A DNA stretch of 64,000 nucleotides, taken from Bacteroides sp. Marseille-P3684 (lineage in GTDB: Bacteria > Bacteroidota > Bacteroidia > Bacteroidales > Bacteroidaceae). The stretch's first letter is position 1; each line of letters starts with the position of its first letter. The notes beneath the pieces are model-generated. The model was not told the DNA's origin. It saw only the letters and a program-made list of their open reading frames with translations, and did no database searches. Shown here piece by piece: positions 2,772 to 51,018 of this stretch. The stretch is taken from contig NZ_LT985808.1 of the NCBI RefSeq assembly GCF_900291465.1, forward strand, positions 535,703-599,702. The letters are read 5' to 3'. Made by a program: the position numbers and the translations under genes.

Positions 2772-3866
2772 ATGGGAATTACTGTTGAAAAACGGAAGCT
2801 GGCAGGCGGACGCGTGGCGCTCTACCTGAACTTCAGCTTCGGACACAAACGCTGGCGCGAGTCGCTCCACCTGACGCTGGAGGACCCCGTCGACACCGCC
2901 ACACGCAAGCTCAACCGCGAGAAGATGAAGATGGCACTCGCCGTGCGCAGCCGCCGCGAACTGGAGCTCATCACCGAGCGCAGCGGCATCCGCACCACGA
3001 AGGGGAACGCGCACACCGACCTGCGCGACGTCTGTACCGCCTTCATCGCCCAGTACCGGCGCAAGGACATCAAGATGGTGCAGGCTGCCTGTGCACAGCT
3101 CGTCCGCTTCACCGCCAACCGTCCGCTCTACACCTGGCGCATCGACCGGACGTTCTGCCTGAAGTTCTACGACTACCTGCGCGAGCATCTCTCGGGGCAC
3201 ACACCGACGGGCTACTTCAACAAGTTCAAGCAGTGCCTGGACTTCGCCGTGGAGCAGCACTACATGGAGGTCAACCCCGCCGCACACGTCCGCCTCGTGC
3301 AGCAGAACGAGTTCACCAAGGCGGTGCTCACCCAGGACGAGATACGCCGCCTCGCCACCGTGCCCTGCCTGCACGCCGAGGTGAAGCGTGCCTTCCTCTT
3401 CGCCTGCATGACGGGGCTGCGCTGGTGTGACGTCGTGGCTCTGCGGACGGAGAGTGTCGACGAGGCAGGACGCATGCTCCACCTGGTGCAGCAGAAGGTG
3501 GAGGGACACTCCAGCAAGGCGGTCCTCCATCTGGCACTCAACGACTCCGCCCTGGCGCTGCTCCGTGCCCGCCGTCCTGCAACGGACGGACGTCTCTTTG
3601 TCCTCCCCTCGTACTCCTACGCGGGCAGGGTGCTCAAGCGGTGGATGCGCAGTGCGGGCATCGACAAGCACATCACCTTCCACTGTGCCCGCCACTCGTT
3701 CGTGACGAACCTGCTCCTCAACGGGGCGAACATCAAGACGGCGTCCGAACTGGCAGGGCACTCCACCATCCGCCACACGGAGAAGTACATCCACATCGCC
3801 GACGAACTCAAGCGGAAGGCGGTCGACAGCCTGCCTACACTGGAGCTTGACCCGGAGTGGGAGTAG
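2772..3866 (+). CDS. Tyrosine site-specific recombinase (candidate DNA invertase)
   Basis: A 364-residue protein starting MGITVEKRKLAGG. It has an arm-type DNA-binding domain (about 1-75), a SAM-like core-binding domain (about 100-190) and a C-terminal catalytic domain. The catalytic residues are all visible: Arg in TGLRWCD, a beta-hairpin Lys in QQKVEGHSSKAV, the HxxR pair in HCARHS, His in LAGHS, and the nucleophile Tyr in EKYIHI. Bacteroidales use proteins of this type both for element integration and for inverting promoters or surface-gene segments. It ends 86 bp before one arm of an inverted repeat bounding a segment that splits a regulator gene, so it is the obvious candidate to catalyse that inversion. 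No phage or conjugation genes are nearby. The upstream in-frame extension was rejected because it lacks family resemblance. Confidence 0.9.
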   Translation: MGITVEKRKLAGGRVALYLNFSFGHKRWRESLHLTLEDPVDTATRKLNREKMKMALAVRSRRELELITERSGIRTTKGNAHTDLRDVCTAFIAQYRRKDIKMVQAACAQLVRFTANRPLYTWRIDRTFCLKFYDYLREHLSGHTPTGYFNKFKQCLDFAVEQHYMEVNPAAHVRLVQQNEFTKAVLTQDEIRRLATVPCLHAEVKRAFLFACMTGLRWCDVVALRTESVDEAGRMLHLVQQKVEGHSSKAVLHLALNDSALALLRARRPATDGRLFVLPSYSYAGRVLKRWMRSAGIDKHITFHCARHSFVTNLLLNGANIKTASELAGHSTIRHTEKYIHIADELKRKAVDSLPTLELDPEWE

Positions 3867-3948: not shown

Positions 3949-4287
3949 GTGGTAGTGGGTACGAATACTACCTATCTGTCAAACGCCGTCAATCAAATCT
4001 TCGGATGTAACCTTAAATCACTCCTCAACTGGTACCGGGTGCAGTATGCCAAGCGGATGTTGACGTGTTACACGTACAAGCTCAAGGACATCCCCTTCAT
4101 CTGCGGATTTTCGTCAAAGAGCACCTTCTACGTCGCCTTCCGCAAATATGAGGGTATCACGCCTTACCAGTATGTCCTGGAGCGTCGCCCCGACAGATTG
4201 GAGGAGTTGGAAGAAGTGTCCGACGGACGGACCTCGAAGAGCACAGCACAGCCGGGACTCCCATCCTCACAGTACGCTCACACCTGA
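3949..4287 (+). pseudogene. C-terminal half of an inversion-split AraC-type regulator
   Basis: The open frame after a TAA at 3928 has its first possible start at GTG 3949. It reads VVVGTNTTYLSNAVNQ, entering mid-way through the first helix-turn-helix of an AraC DNA-binding domain, then continues normally (NWYRVQYAKRML, second HTH with IPFICGFSSKSTFYVAFRKY and ITPYQYV). The missing N-terminal half lies on the opposite strand at 9045-9251. The two halves share the 11 bases TAGTGGGTACG and join in the same reading frame to give SSIVGTNTTYLS, a textbook AraC sequence. The piece is therefore one end of an invertible or inverted segment, not a decayed gene. As it stands it is probably not expressed as a functional protein. 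Confidence 0.88.
3953..3963 (+). repeat. Left inverted repeat of the invertible segment
   Basis: TAGTGGGTACG, lying inside the HTH codons of the split regulator (V-G-T). It matches the complement of 9075-9085 exactly; the flanking bases differ on both sides. Confidence 0.8.
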
Positions 4288-4372
4288 CTCTGACAATCCG
4301 GGCAACCGGCAATTCCCTCAGCCGGTAGCAACCACGAATAAGTAAGAATGAGAACTAAATTAATTGTTAAAT

Positions 4373-4386
4373 CTTTAAATTTAAAG
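4373..4386. promoter_or_regulatory. 14-bp perfect palindrome in the lipoprotein 5' region
   Basis: CTTTAAATTTAAAG, ending 11 bp before the ATG at 4398, in a very AT-rich leader (4345-4397) that contrasts with the GC-rich surroundings. It could be an operator, or simply an AT-rich unstructured leader favouring translation. There is no clear TAnnTTTG element in the 110 bp before the gene, so the promoter may lie further upstream. Confidence 0.4.
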
Positions 4387-4397
4387 TTTTAGTTATT

Positions 4398-7300
4398 ATG
4401 AACAAAAAGTTTATGAATGCACTCCTGTTCAGCGCAGCCTTGCTCTCAGCAGGGGTGGTTACGTCATGTAAAGACTACGATGACGACATTGATGAGCTTC
4501 GCGAGCTGATCAACCAAAACGCGACTCTCGGTGAGACTTTACAGACGCAACTGAACACATTGCAGTCAGCCGCACAAGCTGCTCAGACAACAGCAGACCA
4601 AGCTGTGGCCGATGCAAAGACTGCCGCTGATGCTGCTGCCAAAGCACAGGCTGCTGCAGATGCCGCACAGAGCCGTGGTGATGAAGCCGCTGCTGCTGCC
4701 GCTACTGCACAGGCTGAGGCTGAACAGGCTAAAGCTGATGCTGCTGCTGCATTGGCCGCTGCAGAGCAGGCTAAAGCTGATGCCATCGCTGCTGCTGCCG
4801 CTGACTTGGAAGCTTACAAAGCTGAAGTAGAAGGTCTGTTGGCTAACAAGGCTGACGTTTCTGCTGTGACTACTTTGAAAGGACAGCTCGATGCACTGGG
4901 TAGTGAATTGGAAGGTGAATTGGCTGAGCTTGTCGGACGCATCGAAGGTATCGAAACCGGATTGGCAGACGAAATCACTTCTGCACTGGATGTACGCATC
5001 ACCAGCAACACCAACGAGATTAGAAACATCAAAGACCTCTTGGCTACCTTGACTGCCGGTGCTACTGATTTGGAAGTACAAAAAGCTACGTTGGAGCAAT
5101 ATGCTAACTTGCTATCTGAGAACGGTTTGCAAGCTGACATCACTGAACTCAATCAGGATATTTTAGCTGTTAACGAGCGCATCGACGGTACGGTTGCTGA
5201 CATCAACACGTTGAAGACTGATGTTGCAACTAATAAAACCGACATCGCTACTGCCAAAGCTGACATTAACACGTTGAAGGGTGACGTTGCCGATATTCGT
5301 ACGGATATCAACAGAATCGACAACAACCTGTCTCAACTCCACATCTTGGTTACTGCCCGTCTGAACAGCATCACGTTTGCTCCGGACTACATTGTTGACG
5401 GTGTAGAGGCTATCGTATTCAACTCTTTGGAATACGGTGATATGAAAAACGTTGCTGAAGACACGGATGTGAAGGATGCCAAACTTGACATCGACTTCTC
5501 TACAGCTTCTTTGGCTAAAGCACGTTATCACTTCAATCCTGCCAGCTTCGACTTCGAGAAGAATGCTACTTATCAATATATCGACCGTCAGGCAGAAGTT
5601 ATCACTACTCGTGCTAATGTTGCCGCAACAAAATTGCTTGAAATTGAAGGTACTCCTGTTGCTAACGTAGAAAAGGGTACGGTAGACTTCAGCCTCCGTC
5701 GTCTGAATACGACCGAGAATAGCGACGATAACGGCGACAAGGTTAACCTCGTTGCATTGCAGGCTACGCTGCAAGGTAAGGCCATCGATGAAGGGGAGAC
5801 CGGTGCTGTCGTAACTTCTCCGTATGTTCGCGTATATGATGATATTGTGACTCAAGGTGATCTCTTCATCTCTGACAACAAGAACAAGGATATGGAGACT
5901 CGTGGCGATGCCGCTCACTTCCCGACTACTGTATCAGGTGCTCAGGAGGATGCTGTTCGTTACGAAGTAATCTATGACAAGGAATTCAACTTGAAAGAGC
6001 TTATTGCTACTTGTCTGAACGAAAAAGAAGAGGATGCAACCAAGCACACTGCATTTGATACGGATGCTTACAAGTTGAGCTATCGTTTCGCTGTTGCTAC
6101 TACTGAGTATAACATCCCGACAGATGCTACCATCACGAACCAACAGACTGTCATCGAATGTACCGATGAAGAAGCTGGTTTGTACAAGGTTTCTGACGAA
6201 ATCAAGCGTGAAGCTATCGGTCGTACCCCGATTCTCCGCGTAGAATTGGTTGACGAGGCTGGTCGCGTTGTTCGTCGTGGTTTCGTTAAGGTAAAGGTTG
6301 TTGCTGAAAAGGCTGCTGACTACGTTGCCGGTATTGTTAAAGACCTGACTTACGATTGCGAAAATACTCAGACTACCTTCGAACTTGACGAAGAGTGGAT
6401 GCGTGAAAACGTTTACCGTCAGATCGAGTCTTCTAGAGGCGATGTTTCCTTGAGCCACGAAGAGTTCTGGAACATGTATGAATTCGATCATGCAAATGTT
6501 ACGAAGGACGGCGAACCTACCTCTGGTATGACTCCTGATGTAGTTGACGGTTCTGCAAGTGCAGGTGTTGCTACGAAGAAGGTTGTTTGGAACATCGTCC
6601 ACCGTAACCTCGGTGAAATCAGCGAAGAAGGTTCTGTATTCATCGGTTCTGTAACCTTGAAGAACAAGCTTGCTGCTTCTGAATTCCCCGAATATATCAC
6701 ATTGAACATCACTGTAAATGTGACTCTGCCGGCATTGAATCCTGAATTCACCATCAATAAGGTTTACTGGAACGAGACCCAGACTGCATTCGTATCGAAT
6801 GTAAACCGTCCTGCCAGCGAAACCGACTATGCTAGCAACTGTCAGTTCCAGACCAAACTTTCTGATGCATTTGCAACTGTGAAGTTTGACGAGAAACTGC
6901 CTAAGTGCCACGCTGAATACTTCCGCTTGGCTGGTATCTACAACGGTGAGGAGAAGATGACCACCGGTGGTGTTGAAATCGAAGGCAACACGGCTGCTGA
7001 CCAAATCATTACGCTTGACAAGGACAACGAAGCCATCAAGGCAGCCCTCAACAGCGAAGAAGGTTTGAGCGCAGTTGTTGAATACGTAGTTCAATTCGAA
7101 AGCGGCGACGTTGTAGTTGCTAACACCTTCAACGTTGAGTTCGTAACTCCGGTTAGCTTGAACATGCCTGTTGGCAAGACTGTAATGGATGCCAAGACGG
7201 GTGGTGACGTGGTTGACTTCGGCGGTTACCAGATGTTGACCGACTGGAGAGGTTACACCATCACTGCTCCTGAAACTACTACGGAACTCGTTCAATGGGG

Positions 7301-8132
7301 CTTCTGGGCACACAACCGCAGCGCTCACAAGACTACTGTAATCCCGGGCTGGGAAGAAACTATCAGACCTGCTTACTGGGATATCCAGACTGAACCGGTT
7401 GAAATCCTCACGGGTGAAAAGGTTTATGGTGGTAACGTTAAGGTTTCTTACACTTGGGTATTGAAAAGCTATATAGGCATACCTCTTGATAAGAAAGTTG
7501 TTGTGAAGAACTATGAAGTAGAGGGCTATGATAGCGAAGCCGCTGTACAACAAGCCTTGAATGCATTGGTAACCGAAGGCATGTATTCTACACGACCTGA
7601 TGGTGATTGGTTTGGTATACCATATGAACTCGCTGGACACTATTGTGATGCCTACAACTATACAAGCGAAATTGTAGCTACTACAACTACAATTCAGACA
7701 ATCAAGTCTATCAAGTACTATCCGGCAATCACGAAGTCTCACGCTCCTAAGGTCATCGTAGAAAAGGCTCACACAGCTGTGAAACCGAACTACGAAGGCA
7801 AGGCTGGTGATATCGTAGGCTGCTGGCAGTGGATCGCCAAGGAAAATACTCAGGTAGTAACCTCTTACGGTGCATACTGGGACTTCTACGGTGTATTCGG
7901 CGACTTGAAGCTTGATACTGCAAACGCAACTACCGACCTCGACTACAATGGTGGCAAACTTCCGTCAACTGTAACATTGACTCAAGTAGGCAACACCGTT
8001 AAGTACGAGAACGTAGGTACTCCGGTTGGTTACAGCTATAAGATCAACATCCCGGCTTCTATCGAATACGGATGGGGTGTAGCTGAAACTACTTTGACTA
8101 TCACAGTCAATCCCGCAGGTGCTGGTGAATAA
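4398..8132 (+). CDS. Large coiled-coil surface lipoprotein, S-layer-like
   Basis: 1244 residues. The signal peptide ends in a lipobox (GVVTSCKDYDDDID, Cys about residue 24). Next comes an Ala/Lys/Asp-rich heptad region (about 35-330), with repeats such as AEAEQAKADAAAA and then DINTLKxDVA-type motifs, predicted to form a long coiled coil. The remaining 900 residues look beta-rich and contain no catalytic motif I know. The MNKKFMNALLFSAALLSAG...SCKDYDDDID start resembles the abundant, phase-variable S-layer glycoproteins of Parabacteroides; this is from memory of the family. Base composition is clearly lower in GC than its neighbours, with many T-ending codons (GCT, GTT, GGT, ACT), as in very highly expressed genes. 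It is the cargo of the segment between the two halves of the AraC gene. Exact function unknown. Confidence 0.8.
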   Translation: MNKKFMNALLFSAALLSAGVVTSCKDYDDDIDELRELINQNATLGETLQTQLNTLQSAAQAAQTTADQAVADAKTAADAAAKAQAAADAAQSRGDEAAAAAATAQAEAEQAKADAAAALAAAEQAKADAIAAAAADLEAYKAEVEGLLANKADVSAVTTLKGQLDALGSELEGELAELVGRIEGIETGLADEITSALDVRITSNTNEIRNIKDLLATLTAGATDLEVQKATLEQYANLLSENGLQADITELNQDILAVNERIDGTVADINTLKTDVATNKTDIATAKADINTLKGDVADIRTDINRIDNNLSQLHILVTARLNSITFAPDYIVDGVEAIVFNSLEYGDMKNVAEDTDVKDAKLDIDFSTASLAKARYHFNPASFDFEKNATYQYIDRQAEVITTRANVAATKLLEIEGTPVANVEKGTVDFSLRRLNTTENSDDNGDKVNLVALQATLQGKAIDEGETGAVVTSPYVRVYDDIVTQGDLFISDNKNKDMETRGDAAHFPTTVSGAQEDAVRYEVIYDKEFNLKELIATCLNEKEEDATKHTAFDTDAYKLSYRFAVATTEYNIPTDATITNQQTVIECTDEEAGLYKVSDEIKREAIGRTPILRVELVDEAGRVVRRGFVKVKVVAEKAADYVAGIVKDLTYDCENTQTTFELDEEWMRENVYRQIESSRGDVSLSHEEFWNMYEFDHANVTKDGEPTSGMTPDVVDGSASAGVATKKVVWNIVHRNLGEISEEGSVFIGSVTLKNKLAASEFPEYITLNITVNVTLPALNPEFTINKVYWNETQTAFVSNVNRPASETDYASNCQFQTKLSDAFATVKFDEKLPKCHAEYFRLAGIYNGEEKMTTGGVEIEGNTAADQIITLDKDNEAIKAALNSEEGLSAVVEYVVQFESGDVVVANTFNVEFVTPVSLNMPVGKTVMDAKTGGDVVDFGGYQMLTDWRGYTITAPETTTELVQWGFWAHNRSAHKTTVIPGWEETIRPAYWDIQTEPVEILTGEKVYGGNVKVSYTWVLKSYIGIPLDKKVVVKNYEVEGYDSEAAVQQALNALVTEGMYSTRPDGDWFGIPYELAGHYCDAYNYTSEIVATTTTIQTIKSIKYYPAITKSHAPKVIVEKAHTAVKPNYEGKAGDIVGCWQWIAKENTQVVTSYGAYWDFYGVFGDLKLDTANATTDLDYNGGKLPSTVTLTQVGNTVKYENVGTPVGYSYKINIPASIEYGWGVAETTLTITVNPAGAGE

Positions 8133-8161
8133 GTTCTAAACTTATTCTGACTATTCATACG

Positions 8162-8194
8162 AAGGGCGATTCCCGCAAGGGGGTCGCCCTTTGT
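8162..8194 (+). terminator. Terminator of the lipoprotein gene
   Basis: AAGGGCGA at 8162-8169 pairs with TCGCCCTT at 8184-8191 around a 14-nt loop, 30 bp after the stop codon, followed by a weak T run. Confidence 0.7.
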
Positions 8195-8223
8195 CCGTAG
8201 TGTCAAAATGTCAAAGTGTCAAA

Positions 8224-8298
8224 CGAATCGCCCGAGAAGGGCCTTCCTTGCACCAAAATACGAGTTGGTGACCGGGAAGGGCCTTCTCGGGCGATTCG
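8224..8298. repeat. Long near-perfect hairpin with 24-bp arms
   Basis: Arms 8224-8247 and 8275-8298 are reverse complements with a single mismatch. Inside the 27-bp spacer, CACCAA and TTGGTG pair again, so the whole 75 bp can fold as one hairpin. Each arm also holds the odd palindrome GAAGGGCCTTC, whose central base causes the one mismatch. The outer GGGCGATTC word also occurs in the adjacent terminator at 8164. There is no T run, so it is unlikely to be a simple terminator. It could be an RNA-stabilising 3' structure or a REP-like element. Confidence 0.75.
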
Positions 8299-8499
8299 CT
8301 AAATACACATTGTCGCCGATAGCGGCTGTTTTGTTTCGTTGTGTCCACCCAGAAGCGTGCGTGGTGTGCAAACAGGCAAGGTATAGGAGTAAAAGATGTG
8401 CCATCTAATAGTTTGAAAATTGATGCGTCCGCAGACCTTCTGGAGAGCCAATGTCATTATTTTGGAATTGGTTTTCCATATTCTTTACATCGAATCGCG

Positions 8500-8601
8500 A
8501 AACAATATTGTTTGAGTCGTGAAACAATATTGTTTGACGAAGCAAACACAAGTGTTTGACGGGTGAAACAATATTGTTTGGAGCGTCAAAGAGAAGCGTT
8601 T
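8500..8601. repeat. Tandem palindrome array, 22-bp period, 5 units
   Basis: Units begin at 8500, 8522, 8544, 8566 and 8588, exactly 22 bp apart. Units 1, 2 and 4 are the perfect palindrome AAACAATATTGTTT. Unit 3 is AAACACAAGTGTTT (6-bp arms around AA). Unit 5, AAAGAGAAGCGTTT, is degenerate. The 8-bp spacers differ (gagtcgtg, gacgaagc, gacgggtg, ggagcgtc). The period is not a multiple of three, so it is not coding. The architecture matches the larger array at 53725-54068. Confidence 0.85.
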
Positions 8602-9044
8602 CGTGTGAATAAAACAAAAATGAATGGGCGATAAGGAAGAAGATTGCAAATCGGATTTAACCTTTACGCGCTGGTTTGCCCGTTTTTTCAAAAGTACGCG
8701 TTAGCTGAAAACGTCCAATCGGGAAAATATGGAAGGAAAACGGCGGTTTTGCCTTCCGGAATGTCAAAGACAGCAGAACGGACAGCCCGCGCTGCCCGTT
8801 CCCGTCGGGTGACCATGCACTGACCAAAGTCGGAAGTGTGCAGGGTCTTTCGCTTTCTCTTACATCGGATGATGCGTGCATCCGATAATTCCCCTAATCT
8901 AACGTATATGAATTGTAAAAATATGATACTAATTCTCTGTTTGGCTCCTATGAATGATGGGATTAGGATGTATCAGAGGAAGGACCGGCGGGAAGGGACA
9001 ACGGGCTGCAACGTCCTTGCAGAGGGACTTCCGTGTAGCAGGGG
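8602..9044. other. Non-coding stretch inside the candidate invertible segment
   Basis: Only short open frames without codon bias or recognisable motifs occur here. No promoter, RNA gene or IS end was seen. Confidence 0.5.
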
Positions 9045-9251
9045 TCAGGCGGCTGTGCAGATGCGGGCAATAGCCGTACCCACTATTGAACTGAACTTTG
9101 CCAATGACAGGTTACGGTCCAGATAAACGCGTTTCTGGTTCAAGTAATGGAGCATTTTACGGCATACTTCACCCCCTTTGCCTTCCGGGATACTTTCGGG
9201 GAAGGAGGGAACCTCCACTCTGGAAGAGTCAACCGTCGTTTCTGCACTCAT
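9045..9251 (-). pseudogene. N-terminal half of the inversion-split AraC-type regulator
   Basis: Read from ATG 9251: MSAETTVDSSRVEVPSF, then EVCRKMLHYLNQKRVYLDRNLSLAKFSSIVGT, the usual lead-in and first helices of an AraC DNA-binding domain. It then runs into unrelated codons (AIARICTAA) and stops at 9045. The break is at the 11-bp repeat 9075-9085. Joined in frame to the piece at 3963-4287 it restores a complete regulator of about 166 residues, with no large sensor domain. A good promoter lies upstream at 9287-9317, so in the present orientation a 68-residue truncated protein with an incomplete HTH could be made. An upstream ATG at 9320 is less likely because it lies at or before the promoter. 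Confidence 0.86.
9075..9085 (-). repeat. Right inverted repeat of the invertible segment
   Basis: CGTACCCACTA on the plus strand, the exact reverse complement of 3953-3963. Confidence 0.8.
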
Positions 9252-9286
9252 TTTTAGCCGTGACATAAGATAAAATTTTATGGCAG

Positions 9287-9317
9287 CAAATGTATAGCAT
9301 CTGCTAACATCCGACAA
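9287..9317 (-). promoter_or_regulatory. Promoter for the split AraC gene
   Basis: On the minus strand there is TTG (9317-9315), a 20-bp gap, then TACATTTG (9294-9287), a Bacteroides-type -33/-7 pair. It lies 36 bp before the ATG at 9251, outside the invertible segment, so it would drive the regulator only in the rejoined orientation. Confidence 0.65.
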
Positions 9318-9565
9318 CATTTTTCCTAAGAAATAAAACCTATAACATCAAAGTTTTTAAGAAGTTGGAAAAATCATTAATCAGGATAAAAGATAGATAT
9401 TACATAATTATTATATATACATAATATATTACTATTACTCCGTGTGGGCACACGGACGACATTTGTCAATGAACGGTGAAGGGAGGGAGCGGCAGACCGG
9501 GAATCATTGCCCGTGACAGGCAACAGGACACAACGGGGCTTCGCGAAAGAATTGCCGGTAGTCAA
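9318..9565. other. Intergenic region between split regulator and mutS
   Basis: AT-rich stretch with a run of TATA-like sequence (9400-9435) and a small hairpin CCGTGTG/CACACGG at 9440-9455, possibly a terminator fragment. Nothing else recognisable. Confidence 0.4.
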
Positions 9566-13768: not shown

Positions 13769-14191
13769 ATGAAACTGAACAAAGACTTCCTGCGCTGCAA
13801 CGACCTCGGACTGCTCGTGCTGCGCCTGACAATGGGCGGGCTGATGCTCTTCCACGGTGTACATAAACTGACTCACGGGGTGGGCTTCATCGGCGACATG
13901 CTCGCCGGGATGGGGCTGCCTTCCTTCATTGCCTACGGTGCCCTCCTGGGCGAAGTCGTGGCATCGCTGATGCTCATCATCGGACTGTGGACACGCCTCG
14001 CTGCCGTCGTCTTTGCCGGCAACATGGTGGTTGCCATCCTCATGGTACACCTGCCGCAATTCTTTGCGGTCGACCCCATGACGGGAGGATGGACTGTCGA
14101 ACTGCCCATGCTCTACCTGCTCGGAGCCGGTGCACTCTGCCTCACCGGAGGCGGACGTTATGCCCTCACACGGGGTAGCGTGCTCGACTGA
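13769..14191 (+). CDS. DoxX family membrane protein
   Basis: 140 residues with four predicted membrane helices. The family pattern is visible in LVLRLTMGGLMLFHGVHKL, GEVVASLMLIIGLWTRLAAV and a C-terminal GAGALCLTGGGRYAL. DoxX-like proteins are inner-membrane proteins linked to redox or sulfur metabolism, but their molecular role is often unknown. The ATG at 13769 follows an AAAGGAGAAA-type ribosome site, better than upstream in-frame ATGs. It stands alone between a divergent esterase gene and a converging peptidase gene. Confidence 0.85.
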   Translation: MKLNKDFLRCNDLGLLVLRLTMGGLMLFHGVHKLTHGVGFIGDMLAGMGLPSFIAYGALLGEVVASLMLIIGLWTRLAAVVFAGNMVVAILMVHLPQFFAVDPMTGGWTVELPMLYLLGAGALCLTGGGRYALTRGSVLD

Positions 14192-14210: not shown

Positions 14211-14268
14211 AAAGAGGGAAGAACGGAACATACATGCCTCTGGGGCCATGTTCCGTTCTTCCCTCTTT
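14211..14268. terminator. Strong bidirectional terminator
   Basis: A perfect 21-bp stem (14211-14231 with 14248-14268) around a 16-nt loop lies between the converging DoxX and M16 peptidase genes. A/T runs at both feet allow termination in either direction. Confidence 0.85.
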
Positions 14269-49069: not shown

Positions 49070-49495
49070 GTGTTCGCCCAGCACGAGCATTCTCTAATCG
49101 GTGCAAGTCCGTAACACGCCCGATAGCGGGAAGTGTACAGCCAAGGGCAAGGGTGTCCATTGCGAAGTGGAATCTGAAGGAAGCCGGCGGCAAACATCTG
49201 GCCTGACGAACAGAAACTTGATATAAGGCTGGTGGGCATGGATGAGATTACACAACAAATCAAAGTCCGATAGCTATACGGAAATGCCCTAAGTAAATCA
49301 AGCAGGTATAAGATGGAAAGAGGATGTCCTTAACTGGGGAGGTCTCATGGACGTGCGGAGGATGAATTTCCGAACCACGGAGTAAAGCTTGCCATGAGAA
49401 GTCAGCCGAGGTCATAGTACCCGAGTTTTTTTTTCTACTCAATTCGGGGAAGGACTGAACCATAAGTCAATTGAGCAGTAAATGAAAGTCACTCC

Positions 49496-50902
49496 ATGAA
49501 GGGAAGAATGCAGAAAATACCGATGTCAAGCGATAGCCGCCCTCAAAAGGATAGCACGGAATGCGAAAGCTATGAGGGGGTGCAGACCTTCATGTACATG
49601 ACTGAAAACAACCTCAAGGAAGTGCAATTTGAGCGAGAAAATTTGCTTGAGTTTATCCTCTCGCCGTACAACCTTAACCGTGCATACCTGCCAGTTAAGC
49701 GTAATCAAGTCAGTTGTGGAGTGGACGGATTGTCAACCGAGGAATTGGGAGACTATCTGAAAGAACACAAAGATGAACTCGTGGAATCCTTGAAAACGGG
49801 CAGATACCGCCCGAATCCCGTCCGTAGGGTAGAAATCCCGAAGGATAAGGGCAAGACCCGCCCGCTTGGTATCCCGACGGTGGTGGACAGGGTCATCCAA
49901 CAATCCATCAGCCAAGTACTGAGCCCCATCTATGAACATCAGTTCAGCGACAACAGCTTTGGCTTCCGCCCTCATCGAAGCTGCCACAAGGCCTTGAGGC
50001 GGGCGCAGGAATATATCACCCAAGGTTATAAATACTGCGTGTCGCTAGACCTGGAACGCTTCTTCGACACGGTAAACCACAGTATGCTGATAAGGATATT
50101 GTCCCGCACCATACGTGACGGACGTGTGATATCGCTTATCCATAAGTACCTTACGGCAGGAGTCATGGTTAAACGAGGCTATGAGGAAAGTGTGGAAGGC
50201 GTTCCCCAAGGCGGTCCTTTAAGTCCTTTGTTGGCAAACATCATGCTCAACGAACTCGACAAGGAGCTTGCCTGCAGGGGGCACAAGTTCGTCCGCTATG
50301 CAGACGACTGCATGATACTCTGCCGTAGCAAGCGTGCGGCGGAACGCGTTCGTGAGAGCATCTCCACTTTCATTGAATTACGGCTTCACCTTAAAGTGAA
50401 CCGTGACAAGACAGAAGTGTCATACGTGGGCAGGGTGAAGTATTTAGGTTACTCCTTTTATATGATGAAGGGGAAGTGCCGTCTGCGTCTGCATCCCAAA
50501 TCGGTTGCCAAGATGAAAGGGAAACTGAAAGAACTGACATCAAGAAGCAACGGTTGGGGGTATGCAAGACTGAAAGACAAGTTGAACCAATTCATCAAAG
50601 GCTGGATGAACTACTTTAAATTGGCTGATATGCGGAGCATCCTCCAAATGACAGATGAGTGGCTTCGACACCGAATACGCAGCTATGTCTGGAAGAGTTG
50701 GAAGAAGGTCGGCACAAAGTTCAAGAATCTCATGAAATGTGGTATAGACAAGTGGAGGGCTTGGCAATGGGCTAATACCCGTGGCGGGTATTGGAACACG
50801 GCAGGAAGTCCGATATTATGCCGAGTCATGAATAATGAGCGACTGAGACTTCAAGGCTACCCTTGCCTTGTGGACTTATACATCAAACTGCATCAGCACT
50901 AA
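49496..50902 (+). CDS. Group II intron reverse transcriptase/maturase
   Basis: 468 residues. The reverse transcriptase blocks run from VDGLSTEELGDYLKEH through RPLGIPTVVDRVIQQ, FGFRPHRSCHKALRRAQ, VSLDLERFFDTVNH and GVPQGGPLSPLLANIMLNELD to the catalytic FVRYADDCMI. A thumb/maturase X domain follows (FIKGWMNYFKLADMRSILQMTDEWLRHRIRSYVWKSW). No HNH endonuclease domain follows, in line with class C introns. The protein helps the intron RNA splice and copies it into DNA at new terminators. The frame is intact, so the element may be active. An ATG further in (MYMTENNLKEV) is an alternative start. Confidence 0.95.
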   Translation: MKGRMQKIPMSSDSRPQKDSTECESYEGVQTFMYMTENNLKEVQFERENLLEFILSPYNLNRAYLPVKRNQVSCGVDGLSTEELGDYLKEHKDELVESLKTGRYRPNPVRRVEIPKDKGKTRPLGIPTVVDRVIQQSISQVLSPIYEHQFSDNSFGFRPHRSCHKALRRAQEYITQGYKYCVSLDLERFFDTVNHSMLIRILSRTIRDGRVISLIHKYLTAGVMVKRGYEESVEGVPQGGPLSPLLANIMLNELDKELACRGHKFVRYADDCMILCRSKRAAERVRESISTFIELRLHLKVNRDKTEVSYVGRVKYLGYSFYMMKGKCRLRLHPKSVAKMKGKLKELTSRSNGWGYARLKDKLNQFIKGWMNYFKLADMRSILQMTDEWLRHRIRSYVWKSWKKVGTKFKNLMKCGIDKWRAWQWANTRGGYWNTAGSPILCRVMNNERLRLQGYPCLVDLYIKLHQH

Positions 50903-50903
50903 G

Positions 50904-50939
50904 GAACCGCCGTATGCCGAACGGCACGTACGGTGGTGT
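50904..50939 (+). ncRNA. Group II intron domain V
   Basis: GAACCGCCGTATGCCGAAC leads into GGCACGTACGGTGGTGT, a two-part hairpin with a GAAC terminal loop and a two-base bulge, as in class C domain V. It lies 2 bp after the maturase stop. Confidence 0.85.
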
Positions 50940-51018
50940 GAGAGGTCGGAAAACGAAAGTAGGAAGAAAACTACTTCGTTTTCCTCCTACTCGATTATGT
51001 ACGCTCGGCATGAGTCCA

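Follow-up and report, generated by a model that had tools for sequence, protein, structure and literature searches.

A probable inversion switch inside an AraC-type regulator gene that carries a surface-lipoprotein gene in Bacteroides sp. Marseille-P3684

In the papers cited here, the surface switches of Bacteroidota mostly flip promoters. For the S-layer lipoproteins of the BT1927 type in Bacteroides thetaiotaomicron, a promoter flanked by repeats is flipped (PMC12548429, PMC12118408), and the global invertases Mpi and Tsr19 of B. fragilis flip promoters at their target loci (PMC12632263, PMC4747536). Here, we analyzed a 64,000-nt stretch of the genome of Bacteroides sp. Marseille-P3684 (positions 535,703–599,702 of contig NZ_LT985808.1; hereafter, the window), which contains the two halves of an AraC-type regulator gene, a large surface-lipoprotein gene between them, and a tyrosine recombinase gene beside them. 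We consider it very probable that this locus is a phase-variation switch in which the tyrosine recombinase acts at sites inside the coding sequence of the regulator. It would share with the BT1927 system a large surface protein switched by inversion, a nearby integrase, and OmpA-family genes, and would differ from it in having a fixed promoter, a surface gene carried on the inverting segment, and a crossover within the coding sequence of a regulator.

The first-pass annotation of the window had read the locus as an inversion switch that breaks a regulator gene and carries a surface-protein gene with it, and this reading is supported by the present analysis. The features of the locus are as follows.

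2772–3866, plus strand: tyrosine recombinase gene of 364 amino acid residues, the likely invertase (PF00589 at 70.4 bits, cut-off 27.1; PF13102; PF17293)
3949–4287, plus strand: 3′ half of the regulator gene (AraC type), separated from the 5′ half as the segment now lies (PF12833, 60 bits)
3950–3970, plus strand: C-side crossover site; its left arm, centre, and right arm match the 21-bp palindrome of relatives at 6/9, 2/3, and 9/9 positions, respectively, and its core equals the N-side core
4398–8132, plus strand: large surface-lipoprotein gene of 1244 residues, which would move with the 3′ half-gene; signal sequence with SCKDYDDD
9045–9266, minus strand (start at 9266 or 9251): 5′ half of the regulator gene plus a short tail without homology; it aligns with the N-terminal region of intact homologues
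9068–9088, minus strand: N-side crossover site, with the C-side core inverted and arms matching the palindrome of relatives at 5/9 and 5/9 positions
9287–9317, minus strand: promoter with TTG and TAnnTTTG elements, present at 12 of 13 5′ half-genes
9354–9370, minus strand: conserved upstream element TTCC-N5-YTTAAAWA, a candidate operator

The 3′ half matched HTH_18 (PF12833) from profile position 5, well above the cut-off of 33.6 bits, and PF00165 at 32.7 bits, and it carries most of the AraC-type DNA-binding domain with two helix-turn-helix (HTH) motifs that characterizes AraC/XylS-type regulators. The 5′ half alone matched no Pfam family at cut-off, and it corresponds to the N-terminal part of natural intact homologues; the two frames are thus halves of one AraC-type domain, as had been proposed. 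AraC/XylS-type regulators typically carry an N-terminal ligand-binding or dimerization domain, and neither the 5′ half nor the N-terminal region of any of three joined homologues matched a Pfam family at cut-off. By codon count, rejoining the halves gives 59 + 107 = 166 residues (171 from an upstream ATG), which lies within the range of 20 natural intact homologues (154–175 residues) and agrees with the length of about 166 residues predicted earlier. In the AlphaFold2 model of one joined homologue (the G009 regulator at locus L075; pLDDT 87.6), the junction residues 55–57 are located at the turn between helices 48–55 and 59–70, that is, in the turn of the first HTH; the first pass had placed the crossover inside the HTH. 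The best Foldseek matches of this model in the PDB were AraC-type domains (best E 7.7e-05).

The gene downstream of the 3′ half, separated from it by 110 nt, is the large surface-protein gene described earlier, and its product is predicted to be a lipoprotein on the basis of its signal sequence. Residues 1–40 were 42–100% identical at other loci, and residues 301–1244 were 11–23% identical to the lipoproteins of 21 relatives. A structure model of residues 301–1244 was too poor for use (pLDDT 50), and a sequence search of the PDB gave a fragment of a trimeric autotransporter as the sole match (E 0.0062).

The two crossover sites share the 11-bp sequence TAGTGGGTACG, which is located at 3953–3963 on the plus strand and as an inverted copy at 9075–9085. 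Both copies encode Val-Gly-Thr in the same codon phase, and the earlier description of 11 shared inverted bases was confirmed base for base. A perfect 21-bp palindrome, TAGTATTCG-GCA-CGAATACTA, forms the recombinase-side site at two loci of relatives (L071 and L096), and near-perfect forms were found in other relatives; the sites in the window are degenerate forms of it.

The arrangement recurs within the same genome. Searches with the 3′ half yielded three close matches (E < 1e-30) and 20 weaker ones (E ≤ 0.1), those with the 5′ half three matches (E < 1e-6) and two weaker ones, and those with the lipoprotein three matches. They define locus A (the window), locus B (C1:1022540-1026449), and locus C (C1:1137827-1142230), at each of which the promoter and the 5′ half stand head to head with a lipoprotein gene preceded by a 3′ half. 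At loci B and C, the 5′ half shares 47% and 51% identity, respectively, with that of locus A. The switch had been called unusual in the first-pass annotation: its position inside a regulator gene is supported, whereas it is not confined to one spot, with three loci in this genome and forms with several cassettes in relatives.

When 150 genomes, including that of the strain itself, were searched at E ≤ 1e-15, the 3′ half was matched in 13. Among the 15 listed genomes of the same genus (own included), nine had a match and six, several of them incomplete, had none. Nine same-genus loci were resolved at both ends; those of G004 and G007 end inside the locus and were not counted among them. Seven of the nine are split (A, B, C, and those of G010, G003 (P. 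coprophilus An818), G008, and G001) and two are joined (G009 and G012); the relatives thus comprise four genomes with a split gene and two with a rejoined one. At each of the nine loci the two halves remain paired, and the outcome that would have spoken against the first-pass reading, namely halves never rejoined in relatives or lying in unrelated places, was not observed. Inverted sites at both ends and both orientations were thus found between species. In relatives, the recombinase gene adjoins the 3′ half wherever the locus is split (four loci); where it is joined (two loci), the regulator is followed by the lipoprotein gene and the recombinase gene is at the opposite end of the segment. 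For a flip, the joined loci would need another core, inverted, at the recombinase end; both have one, at distances of about 91 and 169 nt from that gene. Comparison of G001 (split) with G009 (joined) revealed collinear flanks, with three genes on one side and one on the other, and a reversed lipoprotein gene between them.

The cores differ from locus to locus, yet agree inside each locus. When the 5′-side and 3′-side cores of seven split loci were compared over 11 positions, the total of within-locus mismatches was 1; permuted pairings had a mean of 8.4, and 12 of 5040 permutations were as low as observed. Strand exchange would maintain such a pattern.

Fixed-looking paralogues were also observed at L077, L079, L080, L087, and L090. 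They contain an intact regulator with TNQTYLS in place of TNTTYLS, followed by a similar lipoprotein gene and lacking a crossover core, and no recombinase match was found beside them in the stretch examined.

The recombinase gene ends at 3866, 86 nt from the repeat, exactly the distance noted in the first pass. R217, H304, R307, H330, and Y339, which we take to be the catalytic R-H-R-H-Y set of tyrosine recombinases, are present in all 15 locus-associated homologues, and together with PF00589 they identify the protein as a tyrosine recombinase. Five other matches in the genome (E ≤ 1e-5) were 28–35% identical, and none was near locus B or C. Among the proteins with TN[TQ][TS]YLS in the listed loci, to which this tally is confined, 14 of 23 split 3′ halves had a recombinase gene no more than 700 nt upstream (a remnant in one case), as against none of 27 joined regulators; the 23 derive from 25 rows, from which a duplicate cassette of P. 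massiliensis and L116, a Tenacibaculum protein that has about 480 upstream residues, were removed. The nine split 3′ halves with no recombinase nearby are those of loci B and C, four inner P. massiliensis cassettes, L099, L118, and L143. These results suggest that the recombinase of the window performs the inversion, and the enzyme of locus A probably acts at loci B and C too. In the latter case it would resemble Mpi and Tsr19, each of which serves several distant loci, those enzymes differing in that they flip promoters.

The TTG and TAnnTTTG elements constitute the promoter consensus of the phylum Bacteroidota. They were found at 9317–9287 on the minus strand, ahead of the 5′ half, where a consensus promoter had been reported, and upstream of 12 of the 13 5′ half-genes compared (of all 13 when the pattern was relaxed) against a background of 0.06 per 500 nt. 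The promoter sits outside both crossover sites, and not within the invertible segment as in BT1927-type systems. In 12 of 13 loci, all but that of P. vulgatus, TTCC-N5-YTTAAAWA precedes the TTG by a distance of exactly 36 nt. Taken alone, this element was rejected as a unique marker, with five occurrences in the genome (three at loci A, B, and C) and two in the reversed control. The combination of element and promoter occurred at three places, loci A, B, and C, and not in the control, a result that indicates specificity rather than independence, the pattern having been derived from these same sequences. TTCC-N5-YTTAAAWA is a candidate operator that the regulator may bind, and the regulator may act on its own promoter.

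In the mechanism that we propose, the recombinase encoded just outside the C-side site would recombine the two short inverted sites at the first HTH turn of the regulator. In the present orientation (OFF), the fixed promoter would yield a regulator stub, with the 3′ half-gene and the lipoprotein gene facing the other way and presumably not expressed; in the ON orientation, the same promoter would read the intact regulator of about 166 residues and then the lipoprotein gene. Under this mechanism, inversion would take place in living populations. In one metagenome assembly, two contigs (L105 and L108), one ending with a 5′ half and 3′ half and the other with a recombinase gene and a 3′ half, share their final 141 nt, beginning 4 nt before the junction codon; this would fit both orientations in one sample or two cassettes with identical starts. 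The comparison covered these two ends, which are the best 3′-half matches of that genome, a further match there scoring lower.

Several observations weigh against this interpretation. Loci A, B, and C are all split (OFF) in this genome, and only locus A has an adjacent recombinase gene, with none at B or C. The 11-bp repeat is unremarkable by itself: the window contains 1449 exact inverted 11-mer pairs, 210 of which are spaced 3–8 kb apart, and TAGTGGGTACG occurs three times in the 3.7-Mb genome, the same number as its reversed control. Because exact inverted pairs of 11 bp are common, significance by length alone was rejected; the evidence consists in the coincidence of the repeat with the gene break and its recurrence at two further loci and in relatives. 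The 9-nt core pattern also recurs by chance (four places in L076, seven in L073, two in L075, and five in the first 16 kb of the window), and the result on the second core therefore draws its weight from where that core lies and from its matching flanks. In G001 and G009, an OmpA-family gene within the segment points the same way with respect to the flanking genes; one clean flip thus does not relate these two loci, and another rearrangement occurred. The contig ends shared by L105 and L108 may stem from two cassettes that start identically. Finally, for the short 5′ halves pN was as high as 0.45, and synonymous sites were saturated in many comparisons of either half.

The OmpA-family gene shares the segment with the lipoprotein gene at L075 (13951-15045), L076 (16117-17241), and L074 (14194-15282), the assignment being based on Pfam in L074 and L075 and on a similar start only in L076. 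In two joined loci it reads in the direction of the lipoprotein gene, and in one split locus it reads against it.

The break in the regulator could be incidental, with the inversion serving as a gene-position switch for the lipoprotein and the 5′ half-gene as a mere leader that has the site in its codons. The direct succession of the lipoprotein gene, the fixed promoter, and the absence of a Pfam match for the 5′ half alone are consistent with this explanation. The dN/dS values point the other way: the 3′ half of the window gave 0.08–0.20 against three homologues with computable dS (saturated against four others), and all computable 3′-half pairs, split copies included, gave 0.02–0.32. By this codon comparison, the 3′ half-genes are under purifying selection even when split, and the 5′ halves (34 codons) are under weaker constraint. 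Intact regulators of 154–175 residues in joined loci and in the core-less fixed paralogues, the confident AraC-type model of one intact regulator, and the identical codon phase of split and joined copies also speak against an incidental break, which we regard as unlikely.

The present orientation could instead be a second expression state, in which the 3′ half-gene and the lipoprotein gene are read from the recombinase promoter with no intact regulator. The recombinase gene, the 3′ half, and the lipoprotein gene are co-directional with gaps of 86 and 110 nt, and at each of the 14 split loci with a recombinase gene nearby, that gene reads in the same direction as the 3′ half. A terminator scan detected no site between the recombinase gene and the 3′ half-gene; however, with 7 terminator-like sites against a shuffle mean of 7.6, the scan says little either way. 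The promoter is conserved on the 5′-half side, which speaks against this possibility, and we consider it unlikely. That a fixed ancient inversion killed the regulator gene and left its halves as relics, as the occurrence in this genome of none but split copies might suggest, is highly improbable in view of the three same-state loci with open half-genes, conserved promoters, and within-locus core matching, and of both states among relatives.

Loci with several cassettes, each consisting of its own 3′ half-gene and its own lipoprotein gene, were found in three relatives. In P. vulgatus ATCC 8482, the single 5′ half (1718512) runs on into a 3′ half, behind which comes a lipoprotein gene. Another 3′ half, likewise accompanied by a lipoprotein gene, is found 17 kb off in inverted orientation, adjoining the recombinase gene (1735778-1736893 in NC_009614.1); the two 3′ halves are identical over 62 nt across the core and divergent beyond it. 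G247 has one 5′ half, four cassettes (+ - + -), and a recombinase gene at the far end, and in P. massiliensis a single 5′ half is accompanied by six cassettes (+ - + - + -) that extend over 49 kb, the last with a recombinase remnant beside it. These counts refer to the stretches fetched, and the P. massiliensis contig is partly N. In such Phocaeicola loci, inversion would swap the lipoprotein along with the second half of its regulator. The remnant in P. massiliensis is a short piece of the window-type recombinase beside the sixth cassette (G090:C4 353211-353381), and a different recombinase-like frame of 409 residues runs in the opposite direction at 353669-354895. The P. massiliensis locus may be frozen or served by another enzyme.

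In the PilV shufflon, a constant 5′ part is joined to alternative 3′ parts. Shufflons (PilV of IncI plasmids, PMC5430464; Rci, PMC11852207; SusC/SusD of B. fragilis with Tsr0667, PMC4747536) undergo multiple inversions among alternative cassettes, as the anatomy of the P. vulgatus, P. massiliensis, and G247 loci suggests for the present family, which likewise has a constant 5′ part and alternative 3′ parts. Here, in contrast, the constant part is half a transcription regulator and not part of the surface protein, each cassette adds a whole lipoprotein gene, and the window locus, with its single cassette, is a one-cassette ON/OFF form. Chanin 2024 reportedly deals with intragenic inversions and Milman 2023 with gene-altering programmed inversions; compared by description only, they share the change of a coding sequence by inversion and differ from the present segment, which begins within one gene and spans another gene in full. 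The term 'arac' had 0 occurrences, and no split AraC regulator was described, in the available text of PMC12548429, PMC10939037, PMC13114119, PMC11892184, PMC4747536, PMC5903667, PMC11868660, PMC12632263, and PMC12118408, which covers the literature in part. The switch seems to be a variant of known invertons and shufflons, with the regulator-splitting form new as far as the searched literature shows; the case may already be listed in Milman 2023, Chanin 2024, or Porter 2020.

Other features of the window were also recorded. An array of the palindrome AAACAATATTGTTT (three exact copies and one variant, spaced by exactly 22 nt) is located at 8500–8579. The genome has 118 copies of this 14-mer and 0 of its reversed control, and the copies in the places listed mostly form groups at 22- or 44-nt spacing; with so many copies genome-wide, it was rejected as a switch element near loci A, B, and C. 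At 14211–14268, just past a frame of 162 residues ending at 14191, two perfectly inverted 21-nt arms enclose 16 nt. The region 49156–50995 matched group II introns in Rfam, and a frame of 468 residues within it (49496–50902) resembles, by eye, the reverse transcriptase of such an intron.

A 3′-half match (E ≤ 1e-18) was present in 156 of 398 genomes of the family, each at least 90% complete, with at most 14 candidates scored per genome. Most copies among those listed are open frames of about 140–190 residues and may be joined or fixed regulators, an open frame being no proof of either. Loci of this type are easily overlooked because the repeats are short, the segments span 5–50 kb, and the split gene resembles a truncated regulator. 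The same design is present in P. vulgatus ATCC 8482 and is therefore directly testable there. We tentatively suggest, as a possibility held with some doubt, that the Phocaeicola loci form an expression-site family, in which inversion would trade half a DNA-binding domain together with its lipoprotein, and the variant regulator of each state would act on the conserved operator and hold that state or exclude the others. If the proposed switch is true, a single switching event would alter both a surface protein and a transcription factor.

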